A program made the position numbers and the translations under genes. A stretch of 62,629 bases of DNA, taken from contig JAIRKD010000033.1 in the NCBI GenBank assembly GCA_031260285.1, positions 1-62,629 on the forward strand, read 5' to 3'. Below are positions 59,565 through 62,629 of the stretch, piece after piece. Origin of the DNA: Gemmatimonadota bacterium. GTDB lineage: Bacteria > Gemmatimonadota > Gemmatimonadetes > Longimicrobiales > Longimicrobiaceae. The notes under the pieces were generated by a model, which saw nothing but the letters and a program-made list of their open reading frames with translations, was not told the DNA's origin and ran no database searches. Every line of letters begins with the position of its first letter. Position 1 is the first letter of the stretch.

Positions 59565-59752
59565 CCGGTCCACCAATCAGCGGGAATCTGTCCGGACTCG
59601 AAATCGGATGCATCTCCGGGAAAGGGTCTCATCCGGATGAATCCCGCGATACCGGAACAACAGGCGCCATCTCTCCTGACATCCGGGGGTGGAAGAAGCG
59701 GTTCCTGGACAGATACGGTCCGGAGAAATTTATGACAGGGGGAGTTCACTGA
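59561..59752 (+). CDS. possible 63-residue protein between holB and moaC
   Basis: The ATG overlaps the holB stop (ATGA) and the stop overlaps the moaC ATG (TGATG), with GGGAAG six bases ahead. Such exact junctions at both ends suggest real translational coupling. The N-terminal half is Gly/Ser-rich; the C-terminal half (RGWKKRFLDRYGPEKF) is basic and could be helical. I do not recognise it, and its third-position GC bias looks weaker than that of its neighbours, so it may be only a coupling leader. Confidence 0.4.
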   Translation: MTGPPISGNLSGLEIGCISGKGSHPDESRDTGTTGAISPDIRGWKKRFLDRYGPEKFMTGGVH

Positions 59753-60237
59753 TGAGCAGCGAAGGATTTACACACCTCGACGCCTCCGGCCGGCCAGTAA
59801 TGGTTGATGTCGGGGATAAGGCCGTCACACGGCGGAGCGCCCGGGCGGAGGGGGTTCTGAGGATGAATCCGGCAACCGCTGAAGCGATTCTTGAGGGACG
59901 GACGAAAAAGGGTAATGTTCTCACGATCGCGGAGATCGCCGGGATCATGGGTGCCAAGCGGACCTCGGATCTGATTCCGCTCTGTCACCCGATTTCGCTC
60001 TCGTCAGCAAAGGTTGTTCTGGAGGTGGAGCCTGAACTCCCGGGGGTACGGGCGCTGGCGACGGTGGAGGTGGAGGAGCGGACGGGTGTGGAGATGGAAG
60101 CGCTGACCGCGGTTTCGGTTGCGCTGCTCACGGTCTATGACATGTGCAAATCCATGGATCGGGGGATGACAATCGAGTCAGTACGGCTGCTCCGGAAAGA
60201 GGGGGGGCGCAGCGGGGTCTGGGTGGCGGAGGAATAA
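59752..60237 (+). CDS. moaC: cyclic pyranopterin monophosphate synthase
   Basis: A 161-residue enzyme of molybdenum-cofactor synthesis, acting after MoaA. The key residues fit E. coli MoaC: K53 region (TKKGNVLTIA), LCHP (77-80), and D130 with K133 (VYDMCKSMD). GGGGGAG seven bases upstream supports the start; a longer frame to 59689 adds 21 unlike residues. No other moa, moe or mob gene is in the window. Confidence 0.95.
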   Translation: MSSEGFTHLDASGRPVMVDVGDKAVTRRSARAEGVLRMNPATAEAILEGRTKKGNVLTIAEIAGIMGAKRTSDLIPLCHPISLSSAKVVLEVEPELPGVRALATVEVEERTGVEMEALTAVSVALLTVYDMCKSMDRGMTIESVRLLRKEGGRSGVWVAEE

Positions 60238-60276
60238 GCAGGCAGGTGTCCCGTCAGGAACACTGTCATTCCCCAT

Positions 60277-60303
60277 TCCGGGATGGAAGTGTGCCATCCC
60301 GGA
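60277..60303 (+). terminator. hairpin after moaC, terminator-like without T-run
   Basis: A perfect 10-bp GC-rich stem (60277-60286 with 60294-60303, 7-base loop) lies 40 bases after the moaC stop. The following bases are only mildly T-rich, so it may stabilise or end the pdxA-holB-moaC transcript. Confidence 0.45.
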
Positions 60304-60405
60304 TCCGCATTTCGAATAAATCTCCCCGGGTGCTCCCCGAACGCAATATCCCCTCCATCTCCTGACCCCCGGGAACTGCTTTCCCCCGATGGATGTTAGG
60401 CACTT

Positions 60406-60487
60406 GAGGGAGGGTTTCCCCTCGCAGCTCCGAAATCCCCGAGGTACGGATTCCCCTGCACGCCAGCTGCGAGGAGTCCGCCTCGGG
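60406..60487 (+). ncRNA. candidate pseudoknotted leader RNA ahead of the Pmp-like gene
   Basis: Pairings visible: a 7-bp outer stem (60438-60444 with 60481-60487); directly inside it a second 7-bp stem with one G-U pair (60448-60454 with 60473-60479); a GAGGG/CCCTC stem (60406-60410 with 60419-60423); and a 9-base perfect match between 60421-60429 and the hairpin loop (60465-60473). The last would form a pseudoknot and competes with the GAGGG stem. I could not match it to a riboswitch class I know. A regulatory role is inference. Confidence 0.45.
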
Positions 60488-60589
60488 CGTTGCGCGTTCT
60501 GAGGCTGCAAAGTCCAGTCTCCGTTCTACCGGTCAGGCCGTCCTCATCCGACCCGGTGGCCGTTTCGTTTCAACGGATAGAGAATCTCA

Positions 60590-62629
60590 ATGATCATCAA
60601 GCTCTTCGATACCGTGATCGGGATGCCCGTTCCGCAACCTCCGCGGAAGATGCGGCGTTGCCGGAATTCCAGCATCACCCTGTTGATGCTGGTGTGTCTG
60701 GCAGTGCTGATAACAAACCCGCCGGATGCGCAGGCACAATATACAGTGCCCGATGGTGGAACCTTTGCCGGAGGGGGAGTGCCAGCGGCCCCGGCAGCCG
60801 GATCAACCATCGAACTGATTGGTAATGCGACGCTCAGCGCCAACATCACTGCACCCGCCGGATTGGTCGGCCTCACGATCAATGGCGCCACCGGAGGCAG
60901 CACAATCACGATCAGTAACAGGTTCCGGTTCCTGAACGGAGGTGTGGGTCAGCCGCAGACCTGGACCTTTGGCGGAGGCCCTATCACCTTCGCGGGAGAT
61001 GGGGGTGTTCAGCCGGCGCTCTATGGCGGAGTATTCAGCTCCAACGGTTCTCCCCTGACGATCAATGGTGATCTGACCGCGATCAATAACCGTACCAAGA
61101 CGGATGGTGGGGTTATCTATGCGAGCTCGGTGACCGCCACAGGCAGCATAACACTCAGGAATAACGGGGCCGGCGTTGACAGCGTTGGTTCCTTCTTCGG
61201 CGGAGGTATCTTCGCAAATCTGAATGTGGTGCTGGGAACGGATGACGGGAAGAACGTCATCATGACGGGGAATACCGCCGCGCGCACCGGTGGGGCCATC
61301 AGTTCCAACGCCGGTGCTGTGACAATCGGAAATTCCACCGGGATTGTCACCTTCAATGACAACCAGGCCTTTACGGGAAATGGCGGGGCGATCTACGCAG
61401 GCTCGATCACCAATTCCCTGGTTGACATTACAGGGAAGACCATCTCGTTCAACAATAATTTTGCGAGGGACTTCGGTGGTGCCATCTACGCTGCCGATAT
61501 CAAGCTCACAGGAGAGGTGACGGCAAACGGCAACTCGACCAGTCCCGACAACAACGCGGGCGGCGCTTTTTACGCTGCAGGTACCAACGGGGGAATCACC
61601 ATCAATGGTACGCTGGTGGCGAACAACAACCGTTCCGGTTTCGGAGCCGCGCTGGTGGCAAATGGTACAGGCGGTATTCTGGTTACCGGCGCAACCGAAA
61701 TCACCGGGAACGTCGCATCCAGGGCAGCAACCGCGGGGAACGGAGGAGCCATCAACATCGGGAATGGCGGTGTCGGCACCGTGAGGCTGGGAACAGTCAG
61801 CGGCGATGTGGTCCTCTCCAGAAATATCGCGACAGGCTCAGGAGGCGGTGTTTTCAAGAATAATGGCCGGACCGCTGAGGCCACGATGGTTTTCGGGAAC
61901 ACATCCGGAACGACGAAGATCGAGGGGAACCTGGCCGGTTATGATTCCCTCCGTGTCGCGATCGGGAATGAGACGAATAATGGCGGTGCGATCTACTCCA
62001 GCGCCCCGATACAGCTCAACGGGACCACGGTGACGCTGTCGAACAACCGTGCGGTGGGGTCGGGCGGCGCGACATATGGCGGTGCAGTGACGGTTGATGG
62101 GGTGTTCATCGTAGATGGCAACATGGCACGTCTGGGTGCCGGTGGCGCGATCTTTTCCGGCGGCTCGGTTCCGGCATCCGGCGGCCTTACAGCCAGGTCA
62201 AGCGTTTCGTTCACAAATAACATCGCGGGTGGTGGTGCCGGTGGCGCTGTCAGCACCAGCGTCACCGACTCGATTCTCCTGGCCACCAATCCCGGCAGCA
62301 CCGCCACGATGACCGGCAACCGATCGGCGAGCCATGGTGGCTTCCTCGCCGCCTCCGGCACTGGCAGCGGTGTGCTCACCATCGGGAATACAAGCGGCGC
62401 GACCACCTTCCGGAACAACCTGGCCGGCTATGACAGCCTCGGGGTGGAGACCGCAAACATCGCCGCGGGTGGAGCGATCTATTACAGCCCCAACACCGGC
62501 GGTCTGCTGACGATCAACGGCAGCCTGATCACCCTGTCGCAGAACCGGGCGACCGGTGCCGGCGGCGGTATCTACTCTCCGGCAGCCGGAGGACTTGTGA
62601 TCCATGGTCCGCTGGTCGCGGACAGCAAC
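60590..62629 (+). CDS. Pmp-like repetitive surface protein, 3' end outside the window
   Basis: An open frame of 680 codons runs from the ATG at 60590 to the window end without a stop. A signal peptide is seen with hydrophobic core at about 29-42 and cleavage after DAQA (46-49); an ATG at 60650 would begin right at the classical signal, so the first 20 residues may be an extended signal region. The rest is a Gly/Asn-rich beta-helix with GGA[I/V/F/T] motifs at 234, 265, 296, 324, 385, 465, 492, 497, 518, 551 and 627 and FxxN motifs at 255, 287, 541 and 607. This is the pattern of chlamydial polymorphic membrane proteins. A C-terminal autotransporter barrel is expected beyond the window but not seen. 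Confidence 0.8.
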   Translation, partial: MIIKLFDTVIGMPVPQPPRKMRRCRNSSITLLMLVCLAVLITNPPDAQAQYTVPDGGTFAGGGVPAAPAAGSTIELIGNATLSANITAPAGLVGLTINGATGGSTITISNRFRFLNGGVGQPQTWTFGGGPITFAGDGGVQPALYGGVFSSNGSPLTINGDLTAINNRTKTDGGVIYASSVTATGSITLRNNGAGVDSVGSFFGGGIFANLNVVLGTDDGKNVIMTGNTAARTGGAISSNAGAVTIGNSTGIVTFNDNQAFTGNGGAIYAGSITNSLVDITGKTISFNNNFARDFGGAIYAADIKLTGEVTANGNSTSPDNNAGGAFYAAGTNGGITINGTLVANNNRSGFGAALVANGTGGILVTGATEITGNVASRAATAGNGGAINIGNGGVGTVRLGTVSGDVVLSRNIATGSGGGVFKNNGRTAEATMVFGNTSGTTKIEGNLAGYDSLRVAIGNETNNGGAIYSSAPIQLNGTTVTLSNNRAVGSGGATYGGAVTVDGVFIVDGNMARLGAGGAIFSGGSVPASGGLTARSSVSFTNNIAGGGAGGAVSTSVTDSILLATNPGSTATMTGNRSASHGGFLAASGTGSGVLTIGNTSGATTFRNNLAGYDSLGVETANIAAGGAIYYSPNTGGLLTINGSLITLSQNRATGAGGGIYSPAAGGLVIHGPLVADSN

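Follow-up and report, generated by a model that had tools for sequence, protein, structure and literature searches.

The region ahead of the Pmp-like outer-membrane autotransporter gene that starts at 60590 appears, from its sequence, to be a 5' untranslated leader of about 180 nt, whose RNA would form two hairpins, a short one at the 5' end and then a long, imperfect, rod-like one (60424-60508). We favour, tentatively, the explanation that this is a static structural leader of a lineage-specific autotransporter family, duplicated along with the genes, which may guard the mRNA against decay at its 5' end, give a protein or small RNA a place to dock, or do both. It is favoured because the paralogous leader on contig C44 independently folds into a 5' hairpin and a long hairpin. 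An earlier note had proposed a pseudoknotted regulatory RNA at 60406-60487, with mutually exclusive pairings typical of riboswitches or other leader switches. The structured leader ahead of the Pmp-like gene is supported, with C44 folding alike, but the pseudoknot and the switch are not, as the loop pairing is not conserved. If the hairpin works as a leader, it would provide a handle on the control of an unusually large autotransporter set, over a dozen in 2.8 Mb, while the failure of the candidate riboswitch spares follow-up effort.

The window, the whole stretch of 62,629 nt analysed here, is contig C62 of a 2.76-Mb genome in 110 contigs, in which no 16S gene was detectable. The leader site lies between moaC (59689-60237) and the Pmp-like gene, whose product has an N-terminal signal peptide by eye. 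The genome encodes some 15 or more autotransporter beta-domains of the classical type (PF03797, 18 matches). As none of the relatives sampled at genus and family level gave a PF03797 match above the family cut-off, the autotransporter set appears to be a lineage-specific expansion or acquisition. Contigs are broken inside autotransporter genes at the end of C62 (62629), the start of C44, the end of C31 and the start of C103, as expected if repeats defeated assembly.

Table 1. Features of the leader, its gene and the related autotransporter contigs.
Feature	Position	Strand	Detail
Candidate promoter, GGGAACTG ... TTAGGC	60371-60401	+	common to C53; predicted
GAGGG copies	60406-60410 and 60410-60414	+	sequence
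Short 5' hairpin GAGGG/CCCTC	60410-60423	+	part of the minimum free energy (MFE) fold; CCCTC is 60419-60423
5' strand of proposed pseudoknot pairing, CCTCGCAGCT	60420-60429	+	in the preferred model GCAGCT is the base of the long hairpin instead
Extended rod-like hairpin	60424-60508	+	P0 base GCAGCT/GGCTGC, middle helix, P1, P2; proposed structural unit
Outer stem P1, CCCGAGG/CCTCGGG	60438-60444/60481-60487	+	7 bp
Inner stem P2, CGGATTCC/GGAGTCCG	60447-60454/60473-60480	+	8 bp, one G-U
Loop strand of proposed pseudoknot pairing, AGCTGCGAGG	60465-60474	+	pairing not conserved in C44
3' base strand of extended hairpin, GAGGCTGC	60501-60508	+	within a 13-nt block, CTGAGGCTGCAAA, identical in C44
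Pmp-like autotransporter gene	60590-62629	+	680 aa, open at contig end; Chlam_PMP repeats, E 9.6e-19
PF03797 beta-domains (genome G000)	C8, C10, C30, C31, C44, C45, C53, C59, C61, C84, C103, C105		contigs with matches

The sole near-full-length relative of the leader, C44:5403-5594, lies in the same genome ahead of another Pmp-like autotransporter, and the two loci are 76% identical over 392 nt of leader and N-terminal coding part. The frame of this C44 paralogue is interrupted by a frame change (L010 3863-4055) between two long open frames, either a frameshift or an assembly error. Two further relatives are partial: C53:31704-31745, a 42-nt core with the upstream block, directly ahead of an autotransporter, and C10:413-579, which has the upstream block and the core but lacks about 40 nt. 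The remaining autotransporter leaders in the genome show no likeness to the 60406-60487 leader. Elsewhere, a DNA search of 60 relatives gave short, weak matches at most, and neither an order-level covariance-model search (146 genomes) nor a phylum-level DNA search (395 genomes) produced a convincing leader homologue. The best covariance-model match outside the genome, in G145, runs antisense to an apparent purE coding sequence and was taken as chance; the exact core pattern had two unrelated matches in GTDB genome contigs, about the number expected by chance. A search of 146 genomes of the order with the N-terminal protein sequence gave only very weak matches outside its own genome.

All the complementarities named in the earlier note exist where it had placed them. 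Two stacked stems, the outer of 7 bp and the inner of 8 bp including one G-U, close a hairpin at 60438-60487, and the loop has a perfect 9-base complement just upstream (CTCGCAGCT, 60421-60429, with AGCTGCGAG, 60465-60473), which extends to 10 bp with 60420/60474. CCCTC and the strand complementary to the loop share 3 nt, which makes the two pairings mutually exclusive, as had been claimed. A pseudoknotted, riboswitch-like switch would draw on exactly these pairings, with the CTCGCAGCT strand joining either the hairpin loop or the GAGGG/CCCTC stem by turns. The arrangement of two stacked stems and a loop complement occurs once in the 62.6-kb window, both strands searched. Of 300 dinucleotide-shuffled versions of the 140-nt region, one has it. 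The criterion, 7 bp or more in each stem and 8 nt or more in the loop complement, was chosen after the case had been seen.

Such a switch is nevertheless very unlikely. The loop pairing keeps six of its nine pairs in C44, which is chance level (null mean 6.15), and folding with the loop paired costs 7.6 kcal/mol in stability. Helix geometry suggests further difficulties: the 10-bp and 15-bp helices, stacked, run to about 25 bp, which a linker of 8 nt could hardly bridge, and the inner stem and the loop pairing both need positions 60473-60474, which would strain any fold that formed the two in full. The earlier note had recognised no known class, and Rfam bears this out, with nothing relevant at gathering or permissive thresholds, nor at the paralogue loci. 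There is no ligand-related gene, and we found no expression platform in the leader, whether an intrinsic terminator or a sequestered ribosome-binding site. No terminator-like site was found on the + strand at 60200-60640, an intrinsic terminator or attenuator in the leader being rejected for lack of a T-tract, and the start region is about half unpaired, with no specific sequestration of the ribosome-binding site. The leader is like riboswitches and pseudoknotted leader switches in that the window sequence allows mutually exclusive pairings, but it differs from riboswitches in having no conserved pseudoknot pairing, aptamer-like conserved core, Rfam match or expression platform. The riboswitch reading does not hold and we have no evidence for one. 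Slightly less probable again is that the leaders make up a new RNA family, specific to this lineage, which would coordinately control the recently expanded autotransporters through a rod whose base strand has a competing loop partner and would form a true switch in the window copy only.

The strand assigned to the pseudoknot is more likely to be the base of the rod, because the window can form the same long hairpin as C44. The MFE structure of the C44 leader (-39.9) is a long rod closed at its base by CAGCCTC and, further 3', GAGGCTG. Its counterpart in the window can be closed alike, by pairing GCAGCT (60424-60429) with GGCTGC (60503-60508), at an energy (-40.3) equal to its MFE; this 3' segment lies outside the 60406-60487 covered by the earlier note. 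Both C44 and C53 carry a hairpin of other sequence where the window has GAGGG/CCCTC.

We compared the window with C44 against a null model that kept the list of substitutions between them and randomised their positions, with 1000 permuted sequences in each direction. From window to C44 none of the permuted sequences matched the stability of the rod, and from C44 to window 92 did. When control windows were slid along the leader and coding region, the rod element was clearest in both directions; a coding control window, 60726-60817, also scored low in both. In this one full-length paralogue the energy of the stem-loop was kept better than with the substitutions placed at random (11/1000 and 14/1000 in the two directions). 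P1 retains all seven pairs in C44, where one pair has changed on both sides (C-G to G-C) and one is G-U (permutation p about 0.04), a result favoured by an alignment gap outside P1, where an ungapped alignment of the stretch is equally natural. P2 retains five of eight pairs in register and is re-formed in a shifted register. Of the covariation in homologous leaders to which the earlier note had looked, this one paralogue shows a single compensatory pair in P1, and its loop pairing is kept at chance level. The compensatory P1 change hints that the structure has been under some constraint over and above common descent, and a structured leader is supported because hairpin energy and P1 are both kept beyond random substitution placement. 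Two full-length sequences that are paralogues of each other are weak evidence.

A serious rival, and quite a possible one, is that the folding is functionless: a hairpin that arose by chance in G+C-rich intergenic DNA and was copied when the gene was duplicated. The 85-nt fold (z = -2.2, 4 of 200 shuffles as stable) and the 61-nt hairpin (z = -3.1, 2 of 200) are more stable than most shuffles, and the wider 141-nt fold is not unusual (z = -0.9). Stability by itself is unremarkable in this G+C-rich genome, because 1-2% of the windows across the 62.6 kb equal or exceed it (about 1.4% of 61-nt and 1.7% of 82-nt windows). Leader and coding part have also diverged equally, the leader being no better conserved between the window and C44 than the adjoining coding part, and only two full-length copies exist, with no conservation in the sampled relatives. 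What chance does not readily accommodate is the energy kept beyond random substitution placement, together with the compensatory P1 pair. Counted against the static leader, in turn, are the two paralogous full-length copies, the partial retention of P2, the low-scoring coding window, the ordinary stability and the absence of the 3' half from C53 and C10.

An element acting at the level of DNA, such as an operator or recombination-associated repeat common to autotransporter loci, seems unlikely. It would consist of the core CGAAATYCCSGAGGYACGG and the block 60249-60403. The core is common to four places, with the upstream block whole or partial. The 3' half of the leader is absent from C53 and C10; the C53 core pairs with a local partner instead. 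In C53 the core is a perfect 7-6-7 inverted repeat, and C10 carries the block with no autotransporter visible before the contig ends. However, in the window the inverted repeat round the core is degenerate (2/5 positions) and its spacing is off by one base, and only three of the roughly 15 autotransporter genes in the genome have the core.

For the static leader that we prefer, promoter-like hexamers suggest that transcription would start close to 60406. TTAGGC is present in the window (60396) and in C53, and the corresponding place in C44 has TTGACA-17-TTAGGT just upstream of the leader; a scan found no consensus sigma-70 site. Because a strong intrinsic terminator (L010:2213-2243) ends the upstream autotransporter and precedes the C44 leader, the C44 gene needs its own promoter between that terminator and its start. 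An upstream ORF or coding leader (the EIPE frame, open in the window and C44) was rejected, as it lacks third-position bias: substitutions fall about 10/7/8 at codon positions 1/2/3 in a hand count of the window/C44 alignment.

Structured leaders of some abundant surface proteins act in mRNA protection or docking. Stem-loops in 5' UTRs stabilise mRNAs, for example those of vacA and recA (PMC7509114). Like these and the E. coli ompA type, the leader described here places hairpins in a long outer-membrane or surface-protein leader, with a 5' hairpin near the presumed transcript start. It differs in having no sequence relation to them and a longer rod-like hairpin. It also resembles duplicated upstream regions of paralogous surface-protein genes, in that leader and N-terminal coding part are co-duplicated, but here the compensatory change suggests some constraint on structure.

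Several features of the surrounding DNA are recorded in their own right. The intergenic block 60249-60376, 81% identical to C10:451-579 (-), follows moaC and lies upstream of a divergent gene that looks by eye like a methyltransferase; it holds a perfect 10-bp inverted repeat (60277-60286/60294-60303). The coding region contains a strong hairpin at about 60650-60709 (CAGCATCACCCTGTTGATGCTG; -33.9 kcal/mol for a 60-nt window) that is absent from the C44 paralogue. The signal-peptide region (60590-60730) matches C44 at 38/47, 34/47 and 41/47 of codon positions 1, 2 and 3, so that differences are fewest at third positions, the opposite of ordinary purifying selection.
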